The notes below the pieces were generated by a model that ran no database searches, was not told the origin of the DNA, and was given only the letters and a program-made list of their open reading frames with translations. A stretch of 64,000 nt of DNA from Onthophagus taurus. Its lineage: Eukaryota; Arthropoda; Insecta; Coleoptera; Scarabaeidae. Below, piece by piece: positions 24,788-47,390 of the stretch (within the stretch, counting starts at the first letter, position 1; each line of letters starts with the position of its first letter). The stretch is taken from positions 11,718,001 through 11,782,000 of the forward strand of contig NC_091976.1 in the NCBI RefSeq assembly GCF_036711975.1. The letters run 5' to 3'. The translations under genes were made by a program, and so were the position numbers.

Positions 24788-24847
24788 CGCCGATTCAAGA
24801 ACCTCCTCCTAGAACGCAGGTTCGAGGAGGAGGTTCTTGAATCGGCG
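24788..24847. repeat. Terminal palindrome, 'flip' form (element 1 left)
   Basis: Perfect 23-bp arms (24788-24810 and 24825-24847) surround a 14-nt asymmetric centre, AGAACGCAGGTTCG (24811-24824), which could itself form a short imperfect inner stem (GAAC/GTTC). The arms lie 13 bp from the element end. Read inward from their own ends, the right terminus of element 1 and the left terminus of element 2 carry the exact reverse complement of this centre. Confidence 0.95.
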
Positions 24848-24928
24848 ATTCTTTTGAGGGTCGGAGGAGATTCGATGAAGAGAGGAGGAGGTCAATTAAC
24901 TTGAGAAGGTCATGTTATTTTGACGAAA

Positions 24929-25031
24929 TTATTAAAAATTTATCTTTTTTAAAAATTTATCTTTATTAAAAATTTATCTTTATTAAAAATGTATCTTTAT
25001 TTAGGTTATGTTATTAAAAATTTATCTTTAT
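24929..25031. repeat. AT-rich 17-bp minisatellite in the left TIR
   Basis: Tandem copies of about 17 bp (ATTAAAAATTTATCTTT): four adjacent copies with slight changes, then one separate copy after TTTAGGTTATGTT. The right TIR (44239-44358) has five tandem copies plus the separate one, and the left TIR of element 2 has one plus one. Copy number therefore differs even between the two ends of one element. Confidence 0.85.
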
Positions 25032-25487
25032 ATGTAACCTGTTTACCTAGATGAAAACAATTACTATGTTTATCCTTCGACGCTTCTCAATGAACTGTTA
25101 ATGTTTTCGATATATCTCTTAATTTATTATTATACACAAAGGTATACGGTTTTGAGACATGTAGGTATACAAACAAGTGAGTCATAACTTACCTGCGAGA
25201 TATTTTTTATTTTATTATGTAAAGGTGTACAGGTATTTAAGAATATGCGAGGAGGTTCTTGAATCGGCAAATTTTTTGGGAGGACAGGTTTGAGGAGGCC
25301 AACTAACTTGTTAGTAGTAGATGAGTCATGATCCACCTGCGAGATATTTTTTAAGAGCTTCTTAATAAATTTGTCATGCGTTTTGTCTGACGTCTCACGA
25401 TATAATGACATGTTAGAACATGTATAATAGATATATTCGGTAATGATGTAAAATATTACTCCCCCCACCAGCAACCTTATGTATTGC

Positions 25488-25495
25488 TATAAATA
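25488..25495 (+). promoter_or_regulatory. TATA box of the left-end virion gene unit, element 1
   Basis: TATAAATA just inside the left TIR and about 300 bp before the first long reading frame. It is identical in element 2 (47526-47533). A start site 25-35 bp downstream would lie near 25520. It would serve the rightward gene block that begins at about 25785. Confidence 0.6.
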
Positions 25496-25623
25496 CAAAC
25501 GTTGGTCGAAGTTGTACCGCAGAGTGTTGTGCTTCAGAGTAAGGTTTTTGTGTATTTAGTACATATTAAAAATATCGTGTAGATTTTTGGTGCATTTAGT
25601 ACAGAGGATTTTTAACGTAACGA

Positions 25624-25688
25624 GTAAGTAATTCAAATGTAATACAAGTAGATAATGTACTAATGTAAACAATAATATTGATGTTTAG
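25624..25688 (+). other. Predicted 65-nt intron in the leader of the first gene, element 1
   Basis: GTAAGT donor at 25624 and TTTAG acceptor ending at 25688. Exon 1 would end in A and exon 2 begin TGG, so splicing would itself create an ATG. Donor, acceptor and length are the same in element 2 (47662-47726). In element 2 the frame from that ATG runs on into the first gene. In element 1 a run of 7 A (25760-25766) instead of 6 puts it out of frame. Confidence 0.5.
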
Positions 25689-25784
25689 TGGCAACGAGAC
25701 CGAACCCCAAATGTCCAACTAAGAGAGCTGCTGTAAATTCATTTGAAAAGGGTGAAAATAAAAAAACCTGCCCGAAACATCAAA

Positions 25785-26588
25785 ATGGAGGGTAATTGTA
25801 ATGAGACAACTGCAACAAATGTGTCGCTAGGAAGTGATAATCAAAGAAAAAAGGATGTGGTATTCGATGGAATTAATTTGTTGCCTTCCGACTTAGCGGA
25901 GTACGTATTTCCTAGCAATCAACAACATTATGTAGAAAATTGTGGAAAGTTACCTTTCACAAGTAACGTAGTATTAAATGAAGCAGTGAAAAATAATCTC
26001 CAAAAAGGTAATCAAGCGCCATTATTCTCCGAGAGTACATATTATTTAAATAAAAGTCGAACGAAATGGATATCGGTTGGCATGTCTGCCAATCTACATT
26101 TTGATCCGGTTATAAGATTAATGGGAAAAGGACAATGCATAACTTTTACCGAAGACGAATGGAAAAATGTGATTAATAGCAGACAATTGATTATGAATAG
26201 TTTTGTTGGTGATTTATCGACACCACCACATTTCGTTGTAAGCGGCGTGACCTGCAGCAGCCAATGGATAGAAAATGTACGAAAAGTGTTGAAAATGGAA
26301 AGGGGGTCAGAAATATTTTACCTGGCTTACGACTCGTTACACGAATTGTGGAAACTTAGCGATTTAGTTTCGAGTAGGGTAGAAGTATTAAAGTGTATGG
26401 AATATAAAAATTATTACGATAGCGTGATCGATGTGGTATCAACAATGCAAGGTGATATAAAATCGAATATATTGGTTGCTTCAAACGGTGCACCAAGTGA
26501 ACATTTGTGCGTAACTAAAGAACTGCTCGTATACGGTATGGATAAGATATTACTGGATTTAGATTTGCACGCATTAATGAAGATGTGA
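25785..26588 (+). CDS. Unknown Polinton protein A (267 aa)
   Basis: First long frame of the element, and I do not recognise its family. The start is the first ATG in frame (25785, protein start MEGNCNETTA). A spliced upstream start (see the 25624-25688 intron) would add roughly 35 residues in the uninterrupted frame seen in element 2, but element 1 has one extra A that breaks that extension. The product is globular and mixed in composition, with no signal peptide or obvious membrane segment, and it ends in a leucine- and aspartate-rich stretch (ILLDLDLHALMKM). It lies 10 nt before gene B and downstream of the left TATA box, so it probably belongs to the virion gene unit. Element 2 carries a 14-bp deletion in this gene. 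Confidence 0.6.
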   Translation: MEGNCNETTATNVSLGSDNQRKKDVVFDGINLLPSDLAEYVFPSNQQHYVENCGKLPFTSNVVLNEAVKNNLQKGNQAPLFSESTYYLNKSRTKWISVGMSANLHFDPVIRLMGKGQCITFTEDEWKNVINSRQLIMNSFVGDLSTPPHFVVSGVTCSSQWIENVRKVLKMERGSEIFYLAYDSLHELWKLSDLVSSRVEVLKCMEYKNYYDSVIDVVSTMQGDIKSNILVASNGAPSEHLCVTKELLVYGMDKILLDLDLHALMKM

Positions 26589-26598
26589 AGTGAATAAA

Positions 26599-26823
26599 AT
26601 GGAAAAAAAAGTGACGTTTTGCGAATCGAAAAATAGAGTGTACCGAATGCACACTTGGACGTTTGCTTACAGACAATCAAGGATAAGTGACTGGGAAGAA
26701 AAGATGTTGGACGGAATTAGATTTAAGACTAGGATAAGAAACGTAAATAAGTTATTAGAAAAATATTTAGATGTAGATTATAGATTAAACATATATCAAG
26801 AACGTTTTAGCATTGTAGAGTAA
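26599..26823 (+). CDS. Unknown small Polinton protein B (74 aa)
   Basis: Start at the first ATG (MEKKVTFCES), 10 nt after the stop of gene A. The protein is basic, with many K/R residues and an aromatic TWTFAYRQSR stretch. No domain was recognised. The sequence is identical at protein level in element 2 (48622-48846), which supports a real gene, although the copies are young and near-identical overall. The AATAAA at 26964 may end the A-B transcript. Confidence 0.55.
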   Translation: MEKKVTFCESKNRVYRMHTWTFAYRQSRISDWEEKMLDGIRFKTRIRNVNKLLEKYLDVDYRLNIYQERFSIVE

Positions 26824-26963
26824 TCGAAATGTTTTTAACTGAGTAACGATTAATTTTTAGGATAGGTATTAGTAGATTTAAGTGTAGCTGAATAATAATA
26901 ATAATATTAATAGATTTAAGTATAAATTAAGAGCAAAACTGTTTTTGTAAAATATTTAAAAGG

Positions 26964-26969
26964 AATAAA
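26964..26969 (+). terminator. Poly(A) signal AATAAA after genes A-B
   Basis: AATAAA lies 140 bp after gene B in AT-rich DNA and about 75 bp before the PLA2 gene. It is kept in element 2. It could end an A-B transcript. Confidence 0.4.
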
Positions 26970-27045
26970 AGCTTAAAGCACAACAGCAGAGCTTCATTTC
27001 TAGTTTTTAACTGTGAAGAAAAGGAAGAAGGAGTGAAATTATAAA

Positions 27046-27963
27046 ATGAATTTGTTAGAACCTAATCGTAACAGTTATCGTTTGACAGGCAAACGAATTG
27101 GTCGAGGATTTTTTAACAAGTTGATAGATAAACTTCCGATAGAACTTCATTTGCCAGGATATAATTTTTGTGGACCGGGTACCAAGTTGGAAAAGAGATT
27201 ATCGAGAGGAGATCGAGGCGTGAATCCATTAGACGAAGCGTGTAAGAAACACGATATAGCATATACGGTCAGTTCAAATTTAAAATTTAGACACGACGCA
27301 GACAGAGCATTATATAAAGCAGCGAAAGAACGAATACGAAATAAAGAGTCTACTCTTGGAGAAAAAGTGGCATCGTCCGCAGTTGCCGCCTTAATGAAAG
27401 CAAAAGTAGCCGTCGGTATGGGCGTAGGTAGAAAAAGAAATCGTACGGGTCGACGACCTTTAAAAAAAGTCCGAACGCGTGTAAAGCGTGGTGGAGCTAT
27501 ATCTTTTGTAGATGCACTTCGATTCGCTCGCAACGCAATATCGAGATCAGGTGCTAAGAATTTGTTGACAAACGTTAAAGCGGCGTACGGAGCTTTGAAA
27601 AAGATAAGAAAAAGAATTTCCGAACCTAGAGGTCGAGTTATTCGAATTCCGAAAACGGGAGGATTTTTACCTTTAATTCCCCTGTTCGCAGCTTTAGGTG
27701 CCCTAGGTAGTATCGGCGGTGGTGCTGCCGCTATTGCAAGAACTATAAACAACGCGAAAACAGCTAGAGAGCAATTAGATGAAGAACGAAGACATAACAA
27801 GGCTATGGAAGCAAAGGCCGTAGGTAGCGGATTTTATATAAAACCATATAAGAAAGGTTGCGGTTTGTTTATTGAAGGAAAGGGGAATAATGTTGGCGGC
27901 ACAGGTTACTTCAATAAGCCCTATAAGAAAGGTTGCGGTATAACCACTAGTTCAAAAAACTAG
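27046..27963 (+). CDS. PLA2-domain virion protein with basic core and pX-like hydrophobic tail (305 aa)
   Basis: An N-terminal phospholipase A2 domain of the parvovirus VP1 type spans about residues 28-90. It has a calcium-loop-like segment (YNFCGPGTK) and the catalytic His-Asp pair in ACKKHDIAY. In parvoviruses this enzyme opens the endosomal membrane during entry, and a like role is inferred here. A strongly basic stretch follows (about 120-150, KRNRTGRRPLKKVRTRVKR), then a hydrophobic Gly/Ala segment (about 205-230) resembling the adenovirus core peptide pX. Two copies of KPYKKGCG lie near the C terminus. Several Gly-Gly sites might be cut by the neighbouring protease, a possibility I infer only. 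The gene ends ...TCA AAA AAC TAG, a slippery site next to the stop, with the protease frame continuing in -1. Element 2 lacks two T of a five-T run and is broken. Confidence 0.85.
   Translation: MNLLEPNRNSYRLTGKRIGRGFFNKLIDKLPIELHLPGYNFCGPGTKLEKRLSRGDRGVNPLDEACKKHDIAYTVSSNLKFRHDADRALYKAAKERIRNKESTLGEKVASSAVAALMKAKVAVGMGVGRKRNRTGRRPLKKVRTRVKRGGAISFVDALRFARNAISRSGAKNLLTNVKAAYGALKKIRKRISEPRGRVIRIPKTGGFLPLIPLFAALGALGSIGGGAAAIARTINNAKTAREQLDEERRHNKAMEAKAVGSGFYIKPYKKGCGLFIEGKGNNVGGTGYFNKPYKKGCGITTSSKN
27954..27960 (+). promoter_or_regulatory. Candidate -1 ribosomal frameshift site A_AAA_AAC
   Basis: The heptamer is in the correct phase of the PLA2 frame (TCA AAA AAC) and is followed at once by TAG (27961). 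A -1 slip leads directly into the protease frame, which has no ATG between its upstream stop (27948-27950) and the protease core. A possible downstream stem-loop lies at 27973-27998 (CTCG/CGAG with an inner GCGTT/AACGT stem), 12 nt after the site. The whole arrangement is unchanged in element 2 (49974-49980). Confidence 0.6.
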
Positions 27964-28340
27964 TTCGAATACCTCGTCGTGCGTTAACTAACGTCGAGTT
28001 GGAAAAGTTTGCGAAAGTACTAAAAATTCCACATTTTCGGGGTATATTTATGAGAGACAATCTCCCGAGTAAGATTAAAAAGAAGGAAAGAGGTATTGTT
28101 AACTTGGATAACTTGAAAGGACGAGGGACTCATTGGGTCGCCTATAAGAAAGACGACAAGGACATATACTATTTCGACAGTTACGGTGATTTAAGACCGC
28201 CATTAGAAATTGAACAATATTTGCTGTCAGACGGTAGGGGTGGTCAAGTAAAGTATAATTACTGTCGATATCAAAGAGAAATAGATCAAAATTGCGGACA
28301 GTTGTGTCTGAAGTTTCTAAGTAATAAAAGAACCTATTAG
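27960..28340 (+). CDS. PRO: Adenain-type cysteine protease, probably made by -1 frameshift
   Basis: Polinton/adenovirus maturation protease (C5 type), which cuts virion precursor proteins at Gly-rich sites. Catalytic residues by family pattern are His in GTHW (near 28131), Asp in YFDSYG (near 28176) and Cys in the QNCGQLC motif (near 28295), with Gln/Asn before the Cys for the oxyanion hole. The typical N-terminal region (ALTNVELEKF then IPHFRGIFMRD) is coded upstream of any ATG, the first in-frame ATG falling inside the conserved part. The coordinates therefore begin at the proposed frameshift, giving about 126 residues after the slip and a fusion of about 431 aa with the PLA2 protein. Non-AUG initiation or splicing are alternatives. 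The TTG at 27999 is unlikely as a eukaryotic start. Confidence 0.8.
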   Translation, partial: LVRIPRRALTNVELEKFAKVLKIPHFRGIFMRDNLPSKIKKKERGIVNLDNLKGRGTHWVAYKKDDKDIYYFDSYGDLRPPLEIEQYLLSDGRGGQVKYNYCRYQREIDQNCGQLCLKFLSNKRTY

Positions 28341-29013
28341 AGTCTAGAGACGTTTAGACGTTCAGAAGTAATGGAGAAAGAAGCAATACACACGACATAT
28401 ACATTTACGTTGACTGGAAAGTCATCTGAATTGACTTGTAATTTTAATCCTCCGATCTATTTGAACGAATTTGGTAGTTACGAGTTGGCTCTTTTGAATT
28501 TCGAAACGTTTAATAGTTTAGCAAACGTTAATAAAAACAACAACGTAATCCAATACGAAGATAAGACAGGACATTTTAAAAACAATATAATAGTACCTGT
28601 TGGAACGTACGATATTGATGATATTGCCGAGTTCGTGAATGAACAGCTAGACAAAAGACACGCTAAAAGTGTCGTAATAAGGATTAAGGGGAATAATAAC
28701 ACACAACATTCTTTAATAAAAAGTACCCGTCGAATTAATTTTGCATGCGATAATTCTATAGGGCCGTTACTTGGCTTCAAGCCTCAAATATTACCTAGAG
28801 ATACGGAAGTGGAATCCGATTTCGTAGTAAACATAAATAAAACGAACGCCTTACAAATTTATTGTAATTTAGTGACGGGATCGTATAATAACGGAGTTCC
28901 CGTGCACGTTTTATATCATTTTTTCCCAAACGTTCCGGCAGGTTTTAAAATAATCGAATCACCACAACTACCTATTTATTTACCGGTTTTAACGAACGTG
29001 ATTAGTAGCTTAA

Positions 29014-31274
29014 CACTCCACCGCACGCGCCCCTTTTTCATACAACAAAACACGCATGTACTACAATAGTAGAACATTCGCGTCTTATTAGAATCTTTAT
29101 TTATTTTCCATTTCTGATAATAAAAAGTATTAGATATACTTATAACAACTTTATTTATAGAAATCAAAAGAAAATAAGGTATAGTATGGAGTAAAATAAA
29201 ATATATCTTCTAGTTAATCTTCTTCGTTGCACTTTGGACAAATATGACGAAGGTGCGCAGGACAAACCCATTTTCCGCATTTGCTGCAATGTTTCCTTGT
29301 ACTCTTATTCTTTTGTCTCCCACAATAGAAACATTTTCCAACTGTACTTGTATTTGATTGAATTTCTGCAAGTATTTCAGGTTCAATGTTTAGCAGCTTT
29401 CTTATGCGTTCTTTGATATTAGTAGCTATATTGTCACTTTCCAGCCTCTTCCTTAAAAGTGGAGTAATTAGTTCGTAACCAATGGTTTGTAAGTACGATT
29501 TTCTATCAATTTTGTTCATGCTTTTAGTTTTATATATGCACATGCCGTTAATTGCTGCTATATTAAGCAAATTGAAAAAAATTGTTAAAGGCCAACGTCT
29601 CGAATTTCGTGAGACGTCATAGTGACTGCACATTTTATCTAACATATCGACACCGTACTTTGTATTGTTATAGTCGGTAATAATTTCTGGTTTTTTTAGA
29701 TCTCCTGTGTCATTATCAATTGCACAGTCATGGTGCATAGTCGACAAAAGTAATACCACCCTTTTACGTTTTGGTACATATGACACAAGAGTACACATTT
29801 TATGAAAACCAAATAGGGAACTATAAACTTCTCTGTGTGTAGCATTTATAAATTGTGGGGGGATATCTGGTTTATTTTTGCGTAGTGTACCAATTATAGT
29901 GGTTTTCATCTGTAGCAAATCAATCGCCAACGGAACACTGGTGAACCAGTTATCCATACTTACATTTCTGCCAGTTCCCGTTATATGCGCAATCATTCTC
30001 ATAACTAAGTCATAGTTTTTCCAGGAGGTGGAATGTGGACCAGCTGGCTGTTTACCACAATAGATTTCTAGATTACAAGTATAAATACTTTTACAGTCAA
30101 CAAGCGCAAAAATTTTGATGCCATATTTTGCTGGTTTACTAGGTATGTATGTTCTGAATGGACAATTTCCCCTAAATGCAATAAGTTGTTCATCTAAAGT
30201 TAGATATTGTGAAGGAATAAACATACTTTTAAACTTTAAAACAAACATTTCAAAAATTTCGCGAATTGCTGCCAAATTATCAGTCTTCTTTCTTTCATTT
30301 CTATCTATTATGTTATCGAACCTGAGACAACGCATCAAAAACCGAAAACGATTAATTCCCATTGTCAAATATATAGCTTCAACCCCCAATCCTTTTGAAT
30401 TATCCCACATTTGCAAAATATTTTGTCTTCCAGATTGTAATAAACCAGCAAGGTATAAAATACCAATTAAACCTAATACTTCTTCATTATTTGTCAGTTT
30501 TGCATCCCGTGCCCGACTATATTTATCCTTTACTTCGTTAATGTATATGTTAGTGTACTTCACAATAAGAGTTATAATTTCCTCATCTAAAAAGCATCTT
30601 AGTGTTTCCAACTCCGTTTTACAATTTTTTGCACTACTTTGAGGGCCAGGTACTCGAATCTTAACAATATTATGTGATCGCGTTCGCGAATTAACTGGGC
30701 AGTTTTTGTTCCACCTAGTAATTTTGTTTTTCCCATAGAAATAGTTTTGATTTGGTTGTTCTTCATTTTCTTCATCGAAATCCTCTCCTTCCTCTTCCTC
30801 CTCTTCTTCTTCCTCTTCAGATGTATGATGATTCTCAATTACGTCGTTTTCGTTCTCGTCTGGCCATTGTTCTTCATCGGAATCACCTTGATCAATAGAC
30901 AATTCCTCATTTGATTCTTCAAACCAAGCCATAACCTGTCTTTCAAAATTAGGATCTGTAGCCCTAACAGTTTTTCGGTTTGACATGATCATCTAAAAAT
31001 GTAACATAACGAAAAACCCATAAATAACGCTTAAATTGCATACTTACGCGGTAACAGAATTAGTTACGGGAGAACACGCGTGCTCTACAATCGTAGAAAT
31101 AACAAAAAAACTCGACGATACACTAGCAACCGCGTTTGAAAACCAACTAAATACGTTAAGGGTGTCATTTTAGAGGAATACACGAAAACAGGCAACTTCT
31201 CTTACATGAATGTTGTAAATATTGCGTAACTAAATTCTGCAGTCTACAATAGTAGACGCGCGTGCGGTGGAGTG
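29014..31274 (-). mobile_element. piggyBac transposon, complete
   Basis: The 2261-bp element has perfect 17-bp terminal inverted repeats (CACTCCACCGCACGCGC at 29014-29030, its complement at 31258-31274) and a TTAA duplication on both sides. Subterminal palindromes CTACAATAGTAG occur at 29061-29072 and 31244-31255, with a variant CTACAATCGTAG at 31085-31096. These are candidate transposase contact sites. Element 2 gives the unoccupied site. Clean ends and an open transposase gene suggest a recent insertion. Confidence 0.97.
29214..30992 (-). CDS. piggyBac transposase (592 aa), apparently intact
   Basis: DDE transposase of the piggyBac family, which cuts and pastes at TTAA without leaving a footprint. 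Layout: an acidic disordered N terminus (a run of Glu at about 58-70), then the catalytic domain with the three family aspartates at D267 (YLTLDEQL), D347 (VSMDNWFTS) and D449 (YGVDMLDKM). The C-terminal cysteine-rich zinc domain follows (CFYCGRQ ... CSKCGKWVCPAH ... CPKC). The length matches the family. The ATG at 30992 sits right after a candidate acceptor (TTTTTAG). With a GTAAGT donor at 31047 this would be a 55-nt intron in the 5' leader. A second Met lies two codons in. There is no stop or frameshift, so it may be active. Confidence 0.95.
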   Translation of the reverse strand: MIMSNRKTVRATDPNFERQVMAWFEESNEELSIDQGDSDEEQWPDENENDVIENHHTSEEEEEEEEEEGEDFDEENEEQPNQNYFYGKNKITRWNKNCPVNSRTRSHNIVKIRVPGPQSSAKNCKTELETLRCFLDEEIITLIVKYTNIYINEVKDKYSRARDAKLTNNEEVLGLIGILYLAGLLQSGRQNILQMWDNSKGLGVEAIYLTMGINRFRFLMRCLRFDNIIDRNERKKTDNLAAIREIFEMFVLKFKSMFIPSQYLTLDEQLIAFRGNCPFRTYIPSKPAKYGIKIFALVDCKSIYTCNLEIYCGKQPAGPHSTSWKNYDLVMRMIAHITGTGRNVSMDNWFTSVPLAIDLLQMKTTIIGTLRKNKPDIPPQFINATHREVYSSLFGFHKMCTLVSYVPKRKRVVLLLSTMHHDCAIDNDTGDLKKPEIITDYNNTKYGVDMLDKMCSHYDVSRNSRRWPLTIFFNLLNIAAINGMCIYKTKSMNKIDRKSYLQTIGYELITPLLRKRLESDNIATNIKERIRKLLNIEPEILAEIQSNTSTVGKCFYCGRQKNKSTRKHCSKCGKWVCPAHLRHICPKCNEED

Positions 31275-31390
31275 TTAACAGTACGTATACTTGATCAGGA
31301 CGGAAACTTGGTAGACTTCAGAGAAGAAGAAATAACAGTGAGAGTTCACCTAAGATCGATAAATTGAATTATTTAAATTTGACTAACGTT

Positions 31391-31582
31391 ATGACAGTGT
31401 TATATCAAAACAAAAGAATGCGGTGGTCAAGAAGAGACAGAGCGAGAAAATTGTTTAATGGAGAAAACTATAAAGCGCGCGTCATCAGTCAACGTAGCGG
31501 CAGTAGAAGACGATCCATTCATCGATTATCACCAGTCAATCGAAGGTATTTAGTTCAGTTAGGATACGAAGTGTTAAAGTAA
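31391..31582 (+). CDS. Small basic protein F (63 aa), overlapping the MCP start
   Basis: Short, very basic product (QNKRMRWSRRDRARKLF, later GSRRRSIHR). It might be a core or DNA-condensing peptide like the small basic core proteins of adenoviruses, but that is inference from composition. The ATG at 31391 is the first in frame. Its stop overlaps the MCP start as TAATG (31580-31584), an arrangement used for termination-reinitiation in some eukaryotic viruses and retrotransposons. In element 2 a one-base difference near codon 23 shifts the frame. Confidence 0.55.
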   Translation: MTVLYQNKRMRWSRRDRARKLFNGENYKARVISQRSGSRRRSIHRLSPVNRRYLVQLGYEVLK

Positions 31583-32841
31583 TGGACATTTTAAAAGTAA
31601 CGGATAAGATAAAAACAGATCACTCTATCGTAAGTTATGAATTCCATTCGCATCAACCGTTTGGATCGACCACGTTCGATAACAATGACGAAATTAGAAT
31701 TTCAATTCCGGAAATAGATAATTATACTTTACCGAGCGAGAGTTATCTATACGTCGAGGGTAGCGTTCGTAAGTTAGCCGCGGACGGAAGTATAACAAAA
31801 GATGCCAGCGCAACGGGGCAATTGGTTAACAATCCCGTTGCATTTATGTTTAGCGATATTCGATATCTTATTAACGGAGTACATGTTGATGGTGTGCGGA
31901 ACGTCGGTATAAGCTCATGCATGAAGGGTTATTTCTCATCTACACAGAACGAGGTGGTGAAATTAGCGAACGCCGGTTGGCACATAAAACCTTGGAAAGA
32001 TGATATAGCGGGTGTTTCAAAGGCTTTAGATAAAAATGGAAATTTCGGTCTTAGCGTTCCGCTAAAATCGTTGCTAGGATTCGCAGAAGATTTCAGAAAG
32101 ATCATGATGAACGTTCGACAGGAACTTGTGCTAATTCGCGGACACGATGATACGGACGTCATCTTTCAACCAGCAGCCGCTCCGAACGACGAAAAATTGA
32201 AATTGATCATTAATAAAATTATATGGAGAGTTCCTCACGTGGCGGTGGGATTACGCGAACAGTTGGCATTAACAAAACTATCAGAAAGAAACGTAGACAT
32301 TCACGTTCCTTTTCGATCGTGGGAAATACACGAGTACCCTCAATTACCTCAAACTACGAAGCAATCTTGGGCCGTCAAAACTGCTCCACAATTGGAAACG
32401 CCTAGATTTATAATCATCGGATTTCAAACAAATCGAAAGGGTATATTTAAAGGAAACATGGCATTATTTGATAATATAAACTTATCGAACGTAACGGTTT
32501 TCTTGAATGGAGAACGTTTTCCGTACGATAATTTGAATGTGGATTTTGATAACAATCACTATGCGATTTTGTATGATATGTATTCAAGATTTCAGCAAGC
32601 ATACTACTATCAAGAAAGCGAACCTTTGTTTTCACCGGAAGAATTTAAAACTTACGCGCCGTTAATTGGAATCGATTGCACGTATCAACAGGAAGCAATA
32701 CATAAAAGCGGAGTAGAAATAAAAATCGAGTATTCAACGAAAAATCCAATTCCGGAAGGTACGACAGCTTACGCATTAATTCTGCATGACAGAGCATTTG
32801 TGTATTCGCCTCTTACGAAAATGGTTAAGCAATTAATATAG
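31582..32841 (+). CDS. MCP: Double-jelly-roll major capsid protein (419 aa)
   Basis: Polinton/adintovirus hexon-like capsid protein, expected to form trimers that tile an icosahedral shell. Typical features are the N-terminal beta-rich segment (SIVSYEFHSHQPFG), the FxDIRYLINGV stretch near residue 90-100 and a C-terminal strand pattern (IEYSTKNPIPEGTTAYALILHDR) shared by this family. The start is the ATG inside TAATG. It lies directly after F and before gene H. The copy in element 2 is the same length and differs at about ten residues (for example MFSDI versus MVSHI), so both are open. The family call rests on context and fold-like pattern. Confidence 0.85.
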   Translation: MDILKVTDKIKTDHSIVSYEFHSHQPFGSTTFDNNDEIRISIPEIDNYTLPSESYLYVEGSVRKLAADGSITKDASATGQLVNNPVAFMFSDIRYLINGVHVDGVRNVGISSCMKGYFSSTQNEVVKLANAGWHIKPWKDDIAGVSKALDKNGNFGLSVPLKSLLGFAEDFRKIMMNVRQELVLIRGHDDTDVIFQPAAAPNDEKLKLIINKIIWRVPHVAVGLREQLALTKLSERNVDIHVPFRSWEIHEYPQLPQTTKQSWAVKTAPQLETPRFIIIGFQTNRKGIFKGNMALFDNINLSNVTVFLNGERFPYDNLNVDFDNNHYAILYDMYSRFQQAYYYQESEPLFSPEEFKTYAPLIGIDCTYQQEAIHKSGVEIKIEYSTKNPIPEGTTAYALILHDRAFVYSPLTKMVKQLI

Positions 32842-32914
32842 TGGTACTGTTGAAGCAACGTCATTTAGTGTATCTCTAAACATCGAAGGAAACGTTTGCA
32901 TATAGTGGTATATT

Positions 32915-33394
32915 ATGGATATTATGGTTTTTCAAAGGGATTTTATTATTTTGGACATTCAAGGTTTCACGATAAACGATGAAGAATTTATCCCAAAGGA
33001 ACTGGCTTCTTACGACAGTAATCATTGTATAAGTCATTACGTGTTTCAACCTAGTCGAAGCTTTTCTTCACTATCTACCAAATTTCGCAATACGGCGAAT
33101 TGGTTAATGAGTCATCATCATTGTATTGATTGGAACGACGGGTTTGTTCCTGCGTCTCGTTTCGATGAGATCGTTTATTATTTGTGTCGTTCGACAAAAG
33201 TAGCGTACGTAAAAGGACGTGAGAAAGCTACATTTTTAAGAAGAATTTTAACAATACCGGTAAAAGAATTGCCGGAAAATGAATGCAAATTGGAGGTTGG
33301 TGCGCCGATGTGTCCCTATCATAAAAAGAGACCAAGTATGTGCTCCTTATCGAATGTTTTTTATTTATTTTCATACGTATTCAGACATCTATAA
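32915..33394 (+). CDS. Unknown Polinton-linked protein H (159 aa)
   Basis: Starts MDIMVFQRDFIILDIQGF. The pattern ILDIQGF ... IPKELASYD ... HHCIDWNDG ... YVKGREKATFLRRI ... CPYHKKRPSMC recalls a group of uncharacterised invertebrate proteins that I associate with such elements. The acidic residue in the first strand and the overall order would suit a degenerate RNase H-like nuclease fold, but the active-site acids are not convincingly complete, so no function is assigned. The C-terminal Cys/His residues could bind a metal. An ATG four codons in is an alternative start. Element 2 has a stop codon after residue 100. Confidence 0.6.
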   Translation: MDIMVFQRDFIILDIQGFTINDEEFIPKELASYDSNHCISHYVFQPSRSFSSLSTKFRNTANWLMSHHHCIDWNDGFVPASRFDEIVYYLCRSTKVAYVKGREKATFLRRILTIPVKELPENECKLEVGAPMCPYHKKRPSMCSLSNVFYLFSYVFRHL

Positions 33395-33450
33395 CTATAT
33401 GTAAACGAATTGAGAAAGGCAGACGGGTAGTAGCGGTAGAGCAGTTCAAG

Positions 33451-33783
33451 ATGGAACGTCTTTGGCGGTTAGTTACCAGATTGGGACTTTCAACTTTTAT
33501 AATTAATAAAGTGTGGGATATTATGGAAAGATACGAATCTGATTTATCTTTTGCGAATATTAAAAACTACGAATTATGTTATTTACCAATCGATTATTAT
33601 ATCAATAAAGTAAAGCCATTAGATTTGGCGGCGGTTTGGTTTAAATTACCGTTGAAGTATAGAAACGATGAGCGATTACAAAGCAAGCTGCCCTGTTTTG
33701 AACATTATAATTTGCCTCATTGGGAAACGCATATTGATGGTCCACCATCGGCAAGAAAGGATTGTTCTTTATGTATGGTTTAG
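33451..33783 (+). CDS. Unknown protein I (110 aa)
   Basis: The open frame begins upstream without an ATG and overlaps the end of gene H, and the first ATG is at 33451 (MERLWRLVTR). The product is rich in aromatic and basic residues and ends with a Cys pair (KDCSLCMV; KDCSLCKV in element 2). Element 2 has the same frame with few changes although gene H is broken there. No domain was recognised. It is the last gene before the AATAAA at 33826, so it probably ends the virion gene unit. Confidence 0.5.
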   Translation: MERLWRLVTRLGLSTFIINKVWDIMERYESDLSFANIKNYELCYLPIDYYINKVKPLDLAAVWFKLPLKYRNDERLQSKLPCFEHYNLPHWETHIDGPPSARKDCSLCMV

Positions 33784-33825
33784 TATATAAACATTGTCAG
33801 TTATAGATTGTAAATTAATAATAAT

Positions 33826-33831
33826 AATAAA
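33826..33831 (+). terminator. Poly(A) signal at the end of the virion gene unit
   Basis: AATAAA 43 bp after gene I, followed by GT-rich sequence (TTGTAAAAAGTGTAAAAAGTTG) of the sort that completes animal poly(A) sites. It is conserved in element 2 (53577-53582). Confidence 0.6.
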
Positions 33832-33956
33832 AGATTGTAAAAAGTGTAAAAAGTTGTTTTAATTTAAAAGAAAAAATAGTTAATCTAAATGAATACATGG
33901 TATGTATACATTGGGTTGGGTTGGTATGATTTGGGTTGTACATTGAAAAAGTATTA

Positions 33957-34260
33957 AATTGGAAGAAAAAAAGGAAGAAAGAAAGGGGAAAAAAGGAAGA
34001 AAAAAAAAAAAAGAAAAAAAAAAGAAAAAAAAAAGAAAAGGATTGTTTATTGAAGCTCCTCCTATGCTCCTCCCATGCTCCTCCTCAGGCTCCTCCCAAA
34101 GTGGAGATGGAAGAGTGGGGATGGGAGTGGGGGAAATCTAAAATTCCCCCCCCCCGGTTGCCAGGAAAGTAGAGCCAGAAAAAAAGTACCCCCACTCTAA
34201 CTCCGCCCATTCCCCACTCCTCCCCCTTGTCACGCCCCACCCCACGCCCCCCTTCATTAC
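33957..34260 (+). promoter_or_regulatory. Purine tract and C-rich upstream promoter region
   Basis: About 80 bp of almost pure A/G on this strand (33960-34040), then four near repeats of GCTCCTCCYAT/CA (34052-34098), then G-runs (GTGGGGATGGGAGTGGGGG), a C-run, and C-rich boxes (CTCCGCCCATTCCCC, CACGCCCCACCCCACGCC). These resemble Sp1/KLF sites, and the G-rich and C-rich parts are partly complementary. The region lies just before the TATA box at 34266 and is largely kept in element 2. Translated frames in it are lysine/proline low-complexity and not credible genes. Confidence 0.55.
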
Positions 34261-34265
34261 TCTAC

Positions 34266-36313: not shown

Positions 36314-36332
36314 CCATTTTTCCTCCTCTTCC

Positions 36333-37185: not shown

Positions 37186-37236
37186 AACTAACGACTTCAG
37201 CTGTACAGTTCGTAGTAACTTCACATACATCATACA

Positions 37237-38400: not shown

Positions 38401-38469
38401 AATATTATCATAAATATACGACTCTCACATTTTTTGTTTTAAAACACCGACGTTTGTGAACTAGAGCAG

Positions 38470-38895
38470 ATGAGTTTAAGCAAGTTCGGAAAACATTCGT
38501 CTAGTATGACGATCGATAAGTTTGGTAAACACGTACACGGACACAACATTGCTGCTCATTTTAATAAACGTGAAAACTTACAACGATATTTCAAACAACC
38601 AACTATACTTACGTTTAGCGGAGATGGAACTACGGATACAACGGATAATTATTACATTATTCAAAATTTAGGTTACGTAAGTAAATATATAAACTTTTTA
38701 TATATTGGTGAAATAGTGAAATACCGATTTGAAGGAGACGTTGAAATGATTATTAACGGGAGTATCTTCGATCCAAATAAAAAGTTAAATGTTCTCTTCT
38801 TTGGAGATAAAATAGTTTGCAAACCCACAACGAAGACCACTTTACTCAAGAAACCATTTATGGTAGAACTGCTCATTGAAATATCCAGAAAATGA
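38470..38895 (+). CDS. Unknown protein O (141 aa), overlapping the integrase start
   Basis: Begins MSLSKFGKHSSSM, with FGKH repeated at residues 6-9 and 18-21. The rest is beta-rich in appearance (TILTFSGDG ... NFLYIGEIVKYRFEGDVEMIINGS). It could be a small virion or spike-like protein, but no family is recognised. Its stop overlaps the integrase ATG as ATGA (38892-38895), suggesting linked translation. Element 2 has Tyr to stop at 58564. Confidence 0.6.
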   Translation: MSLSKFGKHSSSMTIDKFGKHVHGHNIAAHFNKRENLQRYFKQPTILTFSGDGTTDTTDNYYIIQNLGYVSKYINFLYIGEIVKYRFEGDVEMIINGSIFDPNKKLNVLFFGDKIVCKPTTKTTLLKKPFMVELLIEISRK

Positions 38896-39827
38896 GCGAT
38901 ATTAAAAGGTCCGTCGTAAACGAGTTGCACGCGTCCGCGAGGAAAAAGTATAAACGCAGACGTGTTATTATAAAAGGTTTAACGGACTTATTTCAAGCTG
39001 ATTTAGTGGAGATGATACCTTATTCAAAAGCAAATGGTAATTTTAAATATATTCTAACAGTTATTAATGCTTTCTCAAAGTATGGATGGGCTGTACCACT
39101 AAAAAACAAAACTGGCAAAGAAGTTACGCGAGCTATGGAAACAATTCTATCGGAAAAGCGGAAAAACATACCGAAGAATCTGCAAACGGATAACGGAAAA
39201 GAATTTTACAATGAGGATTTTAAAAAGCTCATGTCACGATATCACATCAATCACTACAGTTCATTTTCCAATTTAAAGAGTTCTATTGTTGAACGGTTTA
39301 ATAGAACAATAAAAGAAAAAATGTGGAAAGAATTTAGTATGCAAGGTAACTATCGTTGGTTGGAATTGCTTCCCAAATTAATTCTGGATTATAACAACCA
39401 AGTTCACAGGACGATAGGAATGAAACCTAGCGAGGTAAATAACAGAAACGCATCGACACTGTTAAAAACTGTATATAATTACATAAAAATTGTCGATCCT
39501 TATACCAAAAAATATAATGTCGGTGATCACGTCAGAGTGAGCAAGCATCGACACGCCTTCACCAAAAACTATACTCCCAATTGGTCTAACGAAGTGTTTA
39601 CAATACATTCTGTTCGTAATACTTTCCCAACAACATATCTGCTCAAAGATGCATCCAATGAAAAAATTATGGGTGGTTTTTATCGAGAGGAATTACAAAA
39701 AGTTAAATATCCTGACGTCTACTTGGTGGAAAAAGTGCTACGGCGAAAAGGAAATCAAGTGTTTGTGAAATGGTTAGGATTAGGTCCGTCTCATAATTCT
39801 TGGATCTCAAAAACTAACGTTCTTTAA
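38892..39827 (+). CDS. INT: Polinton integrase with C-terminal chromodomain-like segment (311 aa)
   Basis: Retroviral-type DDE integrase that inserts the element and makes the 6-bp duplication. The catalytic acids are D37 (LFQADLVEM), D100 (LQTDNGKEF) and E134 (SIVERFNRT). An SH3-like region follows (KYNVGDHVRVSKHR). The C-terminal 40 residues (VYLVEKVLRRKGNQVFVKWLG...) look like a chromodomain, which in related integrases can steer insertion to certain chromatin. Insertion of both elements into satellite DNA fits that, as inference. No HHCC zinc finger is visible at the basic N terminus. The gene is open in both copies. Confidence 0.93.
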   Translation: MSDIKRSVVNELHASARKKYKRRRVIIKGLTDLFQADLVEMIPYSKANGNFKYILTVINAFSKYGWAVPLKNKTGKEVTRAMETILSEKRKNIPKNLQTDNGKEFYNEDFKKLMSRYHINHYSSFSNLKSSIVERFNRTIKEKMWKEFSMQGNYRWLELLPKLILDYNNQVHRTIGMKPSEVNNRNASTLLKTVYNYIKIVDPYTKKYNVGDHVRVSKHRHAFTKNYTPNWSNEVFTIHSVRNTFPTTYLLKDASNEKIMGGFYREELQKVKYPDVYLVEKVLRRKGNQVFVKWLGLGPSHNSWISKTNVL

Positions 39828-39929
39828 AACGTATAAAGACCTATTTAAAAGTTTACAAGACTTTATTAACAATCGAACATTACAAATACATTATTATTAT
39901 TATTCTTTACAATTTTTTTTAAATTAAAT

Positions 39930-42900
39930 TCATTTATTCGCATTCAATCTTTTTATCAACCAATGACCCCACGCCAAAGTATTACATCCGTTCGGTAATA
40001 TGTATCGTTTATCATCGCACGATGAAAGAGCAATTTTATTCTTTAATTCGGTATACATAGTATGAAATTCTGACTTAAAAATGTACATTTTTTTATGAAC
40101 CGATCCGCCACATTCAACCACACGTTTATAATCGGTCACGCTTAAATGTTTATCTATAACATATTTCTTTACTCTTTTAGCCTTCTTTACATTATCATTC
40201 AACAAGGTGATGCAGTACGCCTTAGCTCCTGTTCCAACAAATGACGTTATGCACCTGTTTGGATATTCATCTTTCATTCTTCCCAACACAGATCGACCGC
40301 GAGGTATATTGTGTATATTCTCTAACGGATAATTGGACGTGTCAAAAAATTCAATATTTTCTTTTATATCCTCATATACATTGGGAGTAGTAATTTCTAG
40401 GATTAGGGAATCAGTATCGGTGTATAAAAGTGTTATGTTATTTCCATATTTAACTTTTAAGTAATCATAGAAGAAGCTGTACATTACGGTTTTCGAAAGC
40501 TCTAATATACTGAAACCCACATACAGCGGTTTGCAATAACGAACTTCCGCGACGTTCAATTGAACGGCTATCAAATTATCGCAAAATATTTTCGAAGATT
40601 TAAAATTTGGTTTAGCTATTAGGGCTTCCACGCCCGGTTTCTTATGACGACATTCCCAGTGGGTAACTAGTCTTATATCCACTCGCTTTTCCACATTTTC
40701 CATTGTCTTACCGTATACGATGTTATTCATTGCTTTGTAATGATTTTTTTCAAATTCATTCTTAGCTTTCGCACGTTTATCGGAATTGAAATCGATGTAG
40801 CTCCGCATCCAGTTGGATTGTTTAAATTCTAATACTCTGTAAATCTTCGTTAGTTTCAATCCGAACTTGATACACTGCTTTAGATTCACGTAATGAATGA
40901 TGTATTTTGTTTTATTTTCCAAATTTGCTATTAACTTTGCATTTTTTGAACCTGGGGGTACAATCCGTTCTGGACAAAATGGCAAATCGTTGTGTTCATC
41001 ATGTATTGCTTCCGGATACTCTAAATCTACCTCGAACACGTAACCCTTTTCGGAATCGTCTTCCGTATTGTAAATATCTAACTTTTGAATCTCTTCAGCT
41101 GATAGCCATCGAAATCCTCCCGTCGGTAATTTTCGTCTCATTGCGTGTCCATACAAATTCGTAGCGTCGAGATACAAAATATAAGATGGGTCTTTGGTTT
41201 CATCAAATTCCATCATTAATTTATTGTTAGCCTTCGCACTGCGTTTAGTGCACATACTTAATCCACCGCGAATACCATTTTTAAAGAAGTGTAACATGTC
41301 TATGTCCTTTAATAATTCTAATTTTACCCCTGTCATTCGTAATAATGCATCCCAACCGAAGCCCGGCGCTGTGAAGTAATGACATGGATCTAAAGAGTAA
41401 TACTTCATCGAGATGGTTCGGAAATTCTCAAATACGTCCGCCAAAAGTAAAACGTCAGACGTTAAATAAATGTCGCTATATTCGCCTAAAGTGCGACAGT
41501 TAAATAAGTTCCACACCGTTTGTGCACGACAATAATTTTCTTCGGTTATACTATCGTCGCATAAAGTATTGTAAAAACTACTTCGATCTGGCAGAGCGGT
41601 AAGATTCAGCTTTTCGAATGAATCCACAAAGGAATACGGAAAAACTCCTTTCTGACGTATAAGTCGAAACTGTTCTTCGTTCCTAAAATATTTTCTGATT
41701 TGAACGCATTGGTTGTCTTCCAAAAATGAACCCAACTTCTCTAGCGATAAAGCCATAAACCTAAATGAATCCACAAATCTCAATTTCATATGAACCCGCC
41801 TTAGCTTTCCCTTGCTGTCAATGTTTTCTCCTACGATAATTTTTTTCGAAAATGATATATACTTTTCTTTATTCTGTGCTATAACGTCCACGTCTTCTTC
41901 TTTTAATGCCATATCTTTCACAAACATATGACAATCGTAGTTCGAAAGATTGTGAAAGAATATCGGTATGAACTTTGGTAATTGATAATTGATGTTACAT
42001 ACAGCATGTGCGGGTCCTCTATTTAACCCAGTTAGGTGATCATGATCGCACACTTTATTACCTTCTTTTATTTTGTGCGAACAAATGTGACAGATATCCT
42101 GCATCTCATGTATTAATCTATCAATAGGTGGTAATGGGAGCATTTCTTTTGGTTGGCTTAAATAATTTTTGTATATATTCAGAACGTCATGTTCCAACTT
42201 GCTCATGAAAATTTGAGCAGCATTACATATCCGCATTATACATCCGCGATATATTTCAAACTTCGACAATGATTCGTCATATGAACATTTTATATAATAT
42301 GCAAATGCATAAGGTTCGTGTTTGAAACATTTGACGGAGTATGAATTATCATCGTTAAGTTCTGTTGCTTCCGCATCGGCGATCGGTTTCTGTAATGCTT
42401 CAAAATCTGCATACACCACGAACGGTATTTTTAATTGTCGTTCAAAATTTTCGAACTGTAGTATATTTTCCTTTTCTTCATTTCCATATTTATTTATTTT
42501 CAAATTTGTTGTTGGTAAAATTGCCCTTACCTTGCTGCAATCGTCACTTTGATGACGGATAAGTTTATTTTCTGACGTAAAGAATACCAAGCATCCGTCG
42601 CAAATATACTTTTCATGACCATTCTGCGATGCTTGCGATGATAGTAATCGAGACAGATTTTTTATCCAACAATAGTGAGTATTCCCGGAATCATTTGTAA
42701 CCAATAATAAATTTATATGTCTTTCTTCTTTTTGTCGACATATATACATTGTAATTATGTCATAATTCATAACACCGTCTTTAAAATACTCATTTATTCC
42801 ATATACATTAATAGATAGTTTGTTCTGCTTTTCAAATACAGGTATATCTCGTAATTTAACTGGAAAAACAATATTTGAATAGTCTAAGCCGCAGTCTAGG

Positions 42901-43737
42901 TAATTCGGATACGAAGATGTCCTCTGTGGTAAACCGTTCGGTTCATGTAGTGCGGATGTTACAGCCCATGCAAAACATGCATCATCCGCGTTTTGTATAT
43001 TTATCACAGCACGCTTTGCTTTTATTTGCGATGGTAGATCGATGTAATTAGATGCTCTGATAGGATTATATTTGTTTAAATTTAACTCCATATAGAGAAT
43101 TTGCATTAAAGTCCATCCTAAATAAAATATTGAAACATTTATTTTTTAATATATAGGTATATTATGTCACATTACGCTTACCTGAATCTCGTTCCTGGAA
43201 TTCTGACATTTTTGATGAAATTTCATCAATAAATTCCTTATATATTTTATACAGATCCGACGCTAATGATACTACCTTATTTTTCGTATTGAATGATTTT
43301 ATTTCACAGTCTTCCTTTGATTGTAAAAAATACAAACCAAAACATTCCATATTTAATTTTACATTTCGGTGAATATCGATTGCGCTTTGTATTAGATTTA
43401 GTATTTTTTCTCGAATTCTATGAGAAAATTCATCCAAATCCACAAAAAAACCTTCTTCACTTATTCGATAACTGACAATTTTGTCACCGAATGCTCCAGC
43501 TATTCTCTCCACTCCGTCATCGATTATAACAAAAGCGTTACGCTTGTGTGCGTTGCTTCGTAAATGTGCAGAGTAACATTGTCTATTTACATAATCATCG
43601 CAAGCCTCACATTTTACTGCTTTTGGAATTTGCGGTGCGTCAAGCTTGATTCTCTTGCCAATACAAGATAATCGTTGATGTCTTTTTAAATTGTCAACTC
43701 GAGTAAAACTTTTTCCACAATCCTCACACACGACCAT
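39930..43737 (-). CDS. POLB: Protein-primed DNA polymerase B, two exons, zinc-finger N terminus (1247 aa)
   Basis: Exon 1 is 43737-43182, exon 2 43117-39930, with a 64-nt intron (GTAAGC...ATTTAG) that keeps the frame exactly. Exon 1 encodes two C2H2-like fingers (CEDCGKSFTRVDNLKRH; CEACDDYV...H) and a segment usually fused to Polinton polymerases (EIKSFNTKN ... EFQERDSG). Exon 2 begins with a possible cysteine-protease-like domain (ADDACFAWA, later HYCWIKNL) and another zinc site, then exonuclease motifs (YADFEAL; NLSNYDCH; YSDIYLTSD) with an HNH/endonuclease VII-like site between them (CDHDHLTG). Polymerase motifs follow: A (YLDATNLYG), B (NNIVYGKTMEN) and C (LYTDTDSLI). It would replicate the element from a terminal protein. 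Relative to element 2 it has a 15-bp insertion (5 residues) near 42226-42240. Confidence 0.92.
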
Positions 43738-43806
43738 TTTACAATTTAATGTTGTACACTTCTACTTGTTATGAAAGAACTACGTCAATACCACATTTCG
43801 CAGACG

Positions 43807-43814
43807 TTTATAAA
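43807..43814 (-). promoter_or_regulatory. TATA box of the polymerase gene, element 1
   Basis: TTTATAAA about 70 bp upstream of the polymerase ATG on this strand. It is kept in element 2 at 63681-63688, although the base before it differs. The start site would be near 43780. Confidence 0.55.
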
Positions 43815-43914
43815 CCCTCACCGCTTCTGAAACTTATTGGGGAGGAGGAGGATGCATCGAGTGCGTTTGTATACATGTATATTTATAACTCCGTATACCT
43901 CTGCATAATAAATT

Positions 43915-44566
43915 AAAAAAATATCTCGCAGGTAGATCATGACTCACTTACTAGTATTAAGTTAATTGACCTCCTCCTCGAACGTATCCCCCCAAAAAAT
44001 TTGCCGATTCAAGAACCTCCTCGCATATTTTAAAGCTCCGTATACCTTTACACAATAAATTTTAAAAAATATCCCGCAGGTAGATCATGACTCACTTATT
44101 TGTATACCTACATGTCCCAAAACCGTATACCTTTGTGTACAATAAGTTAAGAGATATATCGAAAACATTACCAGTTCATTGAGAAGCGTCGAAGGATAAA
44201 CATAGTAATTGTTTTCATCTAGGTAAACAGGTTACATATAAAGATAAATTTTTAATAACATAACCTAAATAAAGATACATTTTTAATAAAGATAAATTTT
44301 TAATAAAGATAAATTTTTAATAAAGATAAATTTTTAATAAAGATAAATTTTTAATAATTTCGTCAAAATAACATGACCTTCTCAAGTTAATTGACCTCCT
44401 CCTCTCTTCATCGAATCTCCTCCGACCCTCAAAAGAATCGCCGATTCAAGAACCTCCTCTCCTCATCGAACCTCCTCTGACCCCCAAAAAATTTGCCGAT
44501 TCAAGAACCTCCTCCTAGAACGCAGGTTCGAGGAGGAGGTTCTTGAATCGGCGAATCTATACTACT
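43915..44566 (-). repeat. Right terminal inverted repeat, element 1
   Basis: Inverted counterpart of 24775-25352. It holds the longer form of the end: terminal palindrome, then a 55-bp segment (CAAAAAATTTG... type) and another GGAGGTTCTTGAATCGGC copy, then the AT-rich minisatellite (44239-44358, five tandem copies plus one) and two CTCGCAGG/CCCGCAGG-TAGATCATGACTCA blocks. Between 43738 and 43914 only the polymerase promoter is seen. Confidence 0.9.
44495..44552. repeat. Terminal palindrome, 'flop' form when read from the right end (element 1)
   Basis: Perfect 22-bp arms (44495-44516 and 44531-44552) surround the centre AGAACGCAGGTTCG (44517-44530) on this strand. Read inward from the right terminus the centre is CGAACCTGCGTTCT, the reverse complement of the form at the left terminus. 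The arms end 14 bp from the element end. Confidence 0.95.
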
Positions 44567-44572
44567 AGCATG
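44567..44572. repeat. Right target-site duplication of Polinton element 1
   Basis: AGCATG, the same as 24769-24774, after which the satellite continues in phase (GTTCAGAACGG). Confidence 0.93.
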
Positions 44573-46808
44573 GTTCAGAACGGCGTATAACGTCATAAAA
44601 TCACGTTTTGGGCACATTTTGTTTTTTATCTCCAACATGCTCCAATGTGATATTTGGCATCTGAATATCACAAATATGGTGGATAGAATTACCGGAACCA
44701 AAAGTGATAGAAAGTTCAAACATGGCTCAGAACGGCGTATAACGTCATAATATCACGTTTTGGGCACATTTTGTTTTTTATCTCCAACATGCTCCAATAC
44801 GACATATGGCCCCTGAATATCACAAATATGGTCAACAGAATTACCGGAACAAAAAGTGATGGAAAGTTCAAACATATCTCAGAACGGCGTATAACGTCAT
44901 AATATCACGTTTTGGGCACATTCTGTTTTTTATCTCCAACATGCTGCAATGTGACATTTGGCGCCTGAATATCACAAATATGGTGGATAGAATTACCGGA
45001 ACCAAAAGTGATAGAAAGTTCAAACATGGCTCAGAACGGCGTATAACGTCATAATATCACGTTTTGGGCGCATTTTGTTTTTTATCTCCAACATGCTCCA
45101 ATGTGACATTTGGCGCCTGAATATCACAAATATGGTGGATAGAATTACCGGAACCAAAAGTGATAGAAAGTTCAAACATGGCTCAGAACGGCGTATAACG
45201 TCATAATATCACGTTTTGGGCACATTTTGTTTTTTATCTCCAACATGCTCCAATGTGACATTTGGCGCCTGAATATCACAAATATGGTGGATAGAATTAC
45301 CGGAACCAAAAGTGATAGAAAATTCAAACATGGCTCAGAACGGCGTAGAACGTCATAATATCACGTTTTGGGCACATTTTGTTTTTTATCTCCAACATGC
45401 TCCAATGTGATATTTGGCATCTGAATATCACATATATGGTCGACAGAATTACCGGAACCAAAAGTGATAGAAAGTTCAAACATGGCTCAGAACGGCGTAT
45501 AACGTCATAATATCACGTTTTGGGCACATTTTGTTTTTTATCTCCAACATGCTCCAATACGACATATGGCCCCTGAATATCACAAATATGGTCAACAGAA
45601 TTACCGGAACAAAAAGTGATGGAAAGTTCAAACATGTCTCAGAACGGCGTATAACGTCATAATATCACGTTTTGGGCACATTCTGTTTTTTATCTCCAAC
45701 ATGCTGCAATGTGACATTTGGCGCCTGAATATCACAAATATGGTGGATAGAATTACCGGAACCAAAAGTGATAGAAAGTTCAAACATGGCTCAGAACGGC
45801 GTATAACGTCATAATATCACGTTTTGGGCGCATTTTGTTTTTTATCTCCAACATGCTCCAATCTGACATTTGGCGCCTGAATATCACAAATATGGTGGAT
45901 AGAATTACCGGAACCAAAAGTGATAGAAAGTTCAAACATGGCTCAGAACGGCGTATAACGTCATAATATCACGTTTTGGGCACATTTTGTTTTTTATCTC
46001 CAACATGCTCCAATGTGACATTTGGCGCCTGAATATCACAAATATGGTGGATAGAATTACCGGAACCAAAAGTGATAGAAAATTCAAACATGGCTCAGAA
46101 CGGCGTAGAACGTCATAATATCACGTTTTGGGCACATTTTGTTTTTTATCTCCAACATGCTCCAATGTGATATTTGGCATCTGAATATCACATATATGGT
46201 CGACAGAATTACCGGAACCAAAAGTGATAGAAAGTTCAAACATGGCTCAGAACGGCGTATAACGTCATAATATCACGTTTTGGGCACATTTTGTTTTTTA
46301 TCTCCAACATGCTCCAACATGTCATTTGGCGCCTGAATATCACAAATATGCTCAACAGAATTATCGGAACCAAAAGTGATAGAAAGTTCAAACATGGCTC
46401 AGAACGGCGTATAACGTCATAAAATCACGTTTTGGGCACATTTTGTTTTTTATCTCCAACATGCTCCAATGTGATATTTGGCATCTGAATATCACATATA
46501 TGGTCGACAGAATTACCGGAACCAAAAGTGATAGAAAGTTCAAACATGGCTCAGAACGGCGTATAACGTCATAATATCACGTTTTGGGCACATTTTGTTT
46601 TTTATCTCCAACATGCTCCAACATGTCATTTGGCGCCTGAATATCACAAATATGGTCAACAGAATTACCGGAACCAAAAGTGATAGAAAGTTCAAACATG
46701 GCTCAGAACGGCGTATAACGTCATAATATCACGTTTTGGTCACATTTTGTTTTTTGTCTCCAACATGCTCCAATGTGACATTTGGCGCCTGAATATCACA
46801 AATATGGT
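44567..46808. repeat. 152-bp satellite array between the two Polintons
   Basis: About 14.7 monomers of the same satellite. It contains the 760-bp five-monomer block twice (TACGACATATGG-type monomers near 44797 and 45557), in the same order as at 14.5-16.0 kb, 20.1-20.9 kb and 22.4-23.9 kb. It is the continuation of the left array, split by element 1. No genes. Confidence 0.97.
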
Positions 46809-47390
46809 AGTAGTATAGATTCGCCGATTCAAGAACCTCCTCCTCGAACCTGCGTTCTAGGAGGAGGTTCTTGAATCGGCAAATTTTTTGGGGGTCAGAG
46901 GAGGTTCGATGAGGAGAGGAGGTTCTTGAATCGGCGATTCTTTTGAGGGTCGGAGGAGATTCGATGAAGAGAGGAGGAGGTCAATTAACTTGAGAAGGTC
47001 ATGTTATTTTGACGAAATTATTAAAAATTTATCTTTATTTAGGTTATGTTATTAAAAATTTATCTTTATATGTAACCTGTTTACCTAGATGAAAACAATT
47101 ACTATGTTTATCCTTCGACGCTTCTCAATGAACTGTTAATGTTTTCGATATATCTCTTAATTTATTATTATACGCAAAGGTATACGGTTTTGAGATATGT
47201 AGGTATACAAATAAGTGAGTCATAACTTACCTGCGAGATATTTTTTATTTTATTATGTAAAGGTGTACGGGTATTTAAGAATATGCGAGGAGGTTCTTGA
47301 ATCGGCAAATTTTTTGGGAGGACAGGTTTGAGGAGGAGGTTAACTAACTTGTTAGTAGATGAGTCATGATCCACCTGCGAGATATTTTTT
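46809..47390 (+). repeat. Left terminal inverted repeat, element 2
   Basis: Matches the element 1 TIRs. It carries the long terminal form, with the 55-bp segment at 46881-46935 as in the right TIR of element 1, but a minisatellite reduced to one copy plus the separate copy (near 47018 and 47050). No credible gene. Confidence 0.9.
46823..46880. repeat. Terminal palindrome, 'flop' form (element 2 left)
   Basis: 22-bp arms (46823-46844, 46859-46880) surround CGAACCTGCGTTCT (46845-46858), the exact reverse complement of the centre in the left end of element 1. Confidence 0.95.

Follow-up and report, generated by a model that had tools for sequence, protein, structure and literature searches.

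The 64,000-nucleotide stretch of the Onthophagus taurus genome analysed here (NC_091976.1, positions 11,718,001 to 11,782,000; hereafter the window) contains two mobile elements of the Polinton (Maverick) type, and our subject is the palindrome close to their termini, whose centre is inverted at one of the ends in view. Element 1 (24775..44566, 19.8 kb) was delimited on the basis of its end sequences, the Pfam matches of its genes and the relatives of its polymerase, and is bounded by a 6-bp target duplication, AGCATG (24769-24774 and 44567-44572). Element 2 starts at 46809 and continues to the window's end at 64000, its right tip lying outside at about 64558 by genome coordinates. The tips read AGTAGT at the left end of element 1 (24775..24780, + strand), at its right end (44561-44566, − strand) and at the left end of element 2 (46809-46814, + strand), which is the (AGT)2 end-motif of Mavericks, for which a role in the jumping-back of protein-primed replication has been suggested (PMC8097293). 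Both elements were apparently inserted in a 152-bp satellite array occupying 1-24768 and 44573-46808 (a 300-nt family with 177 register copies across the window), and several other ends retrieved from the genome have similar-looking flanks.

The gene content places element 1 among the Polintons, since it encodes a phospholipase A2 (PLA2)-like protein (27046..27963, + strand; PF08398, E 1.2e-12), a double jelly-roll capsid protein (PF21738), an A32-like packaging ATPase (36433..37185, + strand; PF04665, E 2.9e-9), a retrovirus-type integrase with a chromodomain (38892..39827, + strand; PF00665, E 4.4e-12, and PF00385; 3576 relatives) and a family B DNA polymerase (39930..43106, − strand). The polymerase combines a PRDM9-like C2H2 zinc-finger stretch (residues 149-188), an endonuclease VII domain (residues 330-372) and a YTDTDS motif (residues 895-900). 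Over residues 430-1058 it is 100% identical to an Onthophagus taurus record, and it has relatives in Tribolium and Diabrotica. Its relatives are named DNA-directed DNA polymerase, some of them bearing PF03175, and together with the motif they point to the protein-primed type that is a hallmark of Polintons; Pfam's own PolB model did not match it, and a search of viral contigs found no relatives. A further gene (31582..32841, + strand) has a Pfam match with E 3.9e-100. None of the 14 open reading frame (ORF) products of element 1 scanned with Pfam matched a maturation protease, for which no further search was made. Element 1 also harbours a 592-residue piggyBac-type transposase ORF (29214-30992, − strand; PF13843, E 1e-80) that is absent from the listed ORFs of element 2, and a 191-residue C2H2 zinc-finger protein is encoded beside the right end of each element (43162-43737 and 63036-63611, both − strand). 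Element 1, which also has the terminal inverted repeats of a Polinton, resembles the Mavericks described in PMC8097293 in gene set, tip motif and 6-bp target duplication; the subterminal palindrome sets it apart, and neither “hairpin” nor “palindrom” occurs in the main text of that paper. Titles and abstract openings in the literature yielded no palindromic Polinton ends, which does not establish that they are absent from print.

At all three termini (24775, 44566 and 46809), which a preliminary description of this DNA had noted, the AGTAGTATAG tip is followed by an arm of 22-24 bp, a 14-nt centre and the complementary arm, the palindromes being set 12-14 nt inside the AGTAGT tips. Perfect arms of 22-23 bp had been given; we measured 24, 22 and 22 bp. 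At the left end of element 1, the centre (24811..24824, + strand) reads AGAACGCAGGTTCG inward between 24-bp arms (24787-24810 and 24825-24848). At its right end (44517..44530, − strand; 22-bp arms 44495-44516 and 44531-44552) AGAACGCAGGTTCG stands on the + strand and the inward reading is CGAACCTGCGTTCT, as it is at the left end of element 2 (46845..46858, + strand; 22-bp arms 46823-46844 and 46859-46880). The claimed reverse complementarity between the first centre and the other two is exact. Because terminal inverted repeats read alike inward by default, only one of the three ends, the left end of element 1, is unusual. The centre itself is mostly self-complementary (GAAC/GTTC around a 4-nt loop), and its inversion therefore alters just six of 14 positions.

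These three palindromes have the longest perfect arms in the window (spacers of 3-30 nt), and in single-strand folding they give a very stable stem-loop whichever way the centre reads (−30.3 to −35.8 kcal/mol, z −10.1 to −11.7; in all four folds, none of 200 shuffles equalled it). Alignment shows that the left end of element 1 lacks, at the junction 24848..24849, a 55-nt tandem unit that both the right end of this element and the left end of element 2 possess. The arm motif GAGGAGGTTCTTGAATCGGC recurs in the second tandem unit at the left end of element 2 (46914..46935, + strand) and at 25247-25268, 44001-44022, 44438-44459, 47285-47306 and 63876-63897; its tandem recurrence inside each end suggests protein-binding repeats.

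Pattern searches for copies of the family covered the whole 290.8-Mb genome. The bare 14-nt centre occurs 76 + 78 times, the backward control not at all. Classified by a 49-nt pattern running from the tip through the outer arm to the end of the centre, with at most three mismatches allowed, 154 ends carry the standard and seven the flipped centre (7/161, 4.3%, 95% interval 1.8-8.8%); the tip alone matches 168 times (84 + 84), leaving about seven tips unclassified by the orientation patterns. Parvovirus-type replication is expected to give terminal orientations of about 1:1. Against that ratio the binomial p is about 3e-37, a value that assumes independent ends and is too strong because some ends are duplicated insertions, whereas the direction of the bias is not in doubt. 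A fixed orientation at the ends of other copies, the outcome that the preliminary description had set beforehand as speaking against its proposal, is thus nearly what the genome holds. The flips affect left ends (four) as well as a right end (one), and the seven ends go back to at most six events; their flanks differ, as do the junctions, of which there are at least five kinds.

Full reading of six flipped ends, and of 100 bases of the seventh, shows every one to be altered on the element side of the stem. Two of them, L009 and L010 (the latter belonging to element 1), which are 95.5% identical to each other over 177 nt, lack the first tandem unit, the arm motif forming an exact junction with the second. 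Three more have lost about 5 nt (L011), 8 nt (L012) or all (L013) of the inner arm, and in all three the element sequence picks up again at GCAAATTTT or AAATTTT, where the inner arm has its base, as expected of loss at the stem base. The remaining two, L016 (C6:19658711) and L099 (C7:24671431), run out of the element immediately past the centre into one and the same foreign sequence, so that they are most simply read as a single event, a damaged end that exists in two copies. A separate flipped lineage was considered for this pair, whose members share AGTAGTATAAATTTGCC as well as the sequence after the centre, and was set aside in favour of such a duplicate. The outer arm of both carries the inner-arm letters AAATTTGCC, which may have arisen through two point changes or by outward copying from the inner arm.

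A flipped centre accompanied by an intact inner arm and unit has no true match genome-wide, the sole match being L009, in which the unit is lost. The corresponding pattern with the standard centre gives 161 matches, at least one of which (C10:14714902), reached at three mismatches, has lost the unit. Apart from the one event shared by L016 and L099, each flip is private to a single copy. A flipped end is found opposite a standard one, within an intact target duplication, both in element 1 and at C3:8985346-8988725 (TCCATC). The latter (L012, L032) is a 3.4-kb internally deleted copy.

The preliminary description had put forward hairpin-primed replication of the parvovirus type, or hairpin telomeres, in which a folded 3′ end primes synthesis or is covalently closed and the centre inverts in each round. 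The strong stem-loop that all three ends in the window possess and the occurrence of flips at left and right ends alike are in keeping with this, and the termini of adeno-associated virus, other parvoviruses and poxviruses, as described in PMC1131931 and PMC8956199, likewise have a mismatched terminal palindrome in two orientations. In the beetle elements, however, one orientation dominates, stem mismatches persist and the tip is unpaired. Fold-back copying makes one arm from the other, so a change in the outer arm should recur in the inner one. A first outer-arm variant is carried by 11 ends, and their inner arms are unchanged in 11/11; a second occurs at four ends, three of which look like one duplicated insertion, and again 4/4 inner arms are unchanged. 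The shared mismatches are hence uncompensated in 15/15 ends, contrary to what rolling-hairpin replication predicts, and the arms are not kept identical by mutual copying.

Variants are common to both ends of an element, not to both arms of a palindrome: the first variant occupies both ends of C1:3982444-3982787, inside a CATCTA duplication, and is borne by the ends at C7:26643207 and C7:26672260, which are paired by position only. The C1 copy (L001, L018, L019) is an internally deleted derivative of about 340 bp that retains both palindromic ends with CATCTA on either side. The tip beyond the stem stays unpaired in 4/4 folds. With the 1-5 terminal bases that the folded pieces did not include, the unpaired stretch measures 8 nt for the flipped end and 14 nt for standard ends, so that the 3′ end, once folded, could not prime, whereas the 3′ terminus of a rolling hairpin is base-paired. 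A Pfam scan of 24 ORF products detected no Rep/NS1-type gene. The PLA2-like gene, to which attention had been drawn as a parvovirus trait, is indeed present, but it says nothing about replication, and such a gene has already been noted in print for a Polinton of Tribolium, in a figure legend of PMC3671162. With both orientations far from equally common and all seven flips tied to loss beside the stem, we regard hairpin-primed replication as highly improbable in this family, and the results fit the usual view of protein priming.

The flips probably arose instead by local rearrangement of single copies that depended on a hairpin or cruciform, break-and-rejoin and template switching being taken together here. 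Cruciform-based inversion, which had been mentioned as an alternative at the outset, accommodates flips that are rare and tied to loss on the element side. According to this proposal, the ends of the family carry a fixed, self-complementary terminal sequence able to form a stem-loop or cruciform, which would occasionally be cut or mis-copied in single copies, most likely after integration. The element side would be cut at the base of the extruded stem, while the host-side piece would retain the tip and outer arm and end in a hairpin cap whose loop now reads in reverse. The cap would then be opened or copied through and trimmed, and its new junction with the element would form at the base of the inner arm or slightly further in. 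The flipped centre would thereby come with one of three losses: part of the inner arm (three cases), a tandem unit that drops out when the arm motif pairs with its next copy (two, including element 1), or everything past the centre (a single event seen in two copies). In the three short deletions, element sequence resumes at a common point, the stem base, and the inner arm is retained to differing extents, as expected if the element side of an extruded stem had been cut. A hairpin or cruciform is the probable intermediate, and the flips themselves are best explained as an instance of known inverted-repeat instability, tied to a recognisable signature.

Precedents for this scheme have been published. 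Hairpin-capped breaks at palindromes, and their opening by Artemis or MRX-Sae2 followed by rejoining, are reported as established in yeast and human cells (PMC7999016); they, too, predict loss at the stem base, and we infer that opening of such a cap can leave the centre inverted. The present case differs in having arms of only 22-24 bp around a 14-nt centre and in that no break was observed. In yeast, template switching is reported to invert spacers between the arms of inverted repeats, a form of quasipalindrome mutation (PMC8604942), which resembles the beetle flips in being an in situ inversion of the spacer that recurs independently. The yeast arms were mostly untouched, whereas 7/7 flips here carry one-sided loss.

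Several points weigh against the rearrangement of single copies. Perfect arms remained unchanged in 9/10 of the yeast inversions (PMC8604942), and a clean inversion with unchanged arms, the expectation of plain template switching, is seen nowhere in the beetle, so that this process alone fails to explain the deletions. The arms are also short beside the repeats of the cited break studies, and the timing in integrated copies, although the most likely one, is reached by inference. The statistical link between flip and loss speaks for such rearrangement and carries caveats of its own. Damage to the inner arm, or loss or alteration of the unit, was scored in 6/6 flipped and 5/49 standard ends (Fisher p 1.6e-5), and a damaged inner arm alone in 4/6 and 1/49 (p 2.1e-4), in a table of 55 distinct retrieved ends whose 49 standard members come mostly from contigs C1-C8, are not a random sample and include duplicated insertions, so that the p-values treat some relatives as independent. 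Scoring unit loss as intact weakens the link (4/6 versus 2/49, p 6e-4). Exact unit loss, finally, occurs at four ends, two flipped (L009 and L010) and two standard, and the existence of the latter means that in L009 and L010 the deletion could have preceded a clean flip.

If the flip instead preceded integration, it would stem from a rare fold-back or strand-switch error of the protein-primed polymerase on the extrachromosomal element, whose defective end was then integrated. Strand-displacement copying exposes foldable single strands, a hairpin-forming derivative of a protein-primed plasmid is cited in the reference list of PMC11071308, and the target duplications around the flipped end are intact in element 1 and the C3 copy, all of which this origin would accommodate. 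We nevertheless consider it unlikely, given that no flip junction is common to clearly independent insertions (L016 and L099 are one event, and L009 and L010 differ); in addition, four of the six fully read flipped ends have no nearby partner among the matches listed, which fits ageing copies and is a weak argument. An assembly error at 24811-24824, a suspicion raised in the preliminary description, would fit the difficulty of assembling palindromes within satellite and repeated elements; it is very unlikely, for the flip is seen at seven places whose junctions and flanks vary. A more speculative proposal, to which we give little credence, is that the palindrome has a function in the Polinton, as an extruded stem-loop that would act in the extrachromosomal stage in integrase docking, end protection or packaging, alongside protein priming at AGTAGT; it could be likened to the mismatched hairpins of poxviruses, and the rare flips in integrated copies would then be traces of its having been cut and resealed by enzymes of the element or the host.

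Rearrangement of single copies through a hairpin or cruciform, if correct, removes the apparent contradiction between flip/flop ends and the presumed protein priming of the element. It also provides a simple test for other elements with terminal palindromes, namely the counts of the two orientations, the presence of deletions with the flips and the compensation of shared stem mismatches. The family offers no fewer than 161 natural copies of a single 58-62-nt palindrome that can be classified, a sample in which the breakage of short palindromes in an insect genome can be followed.

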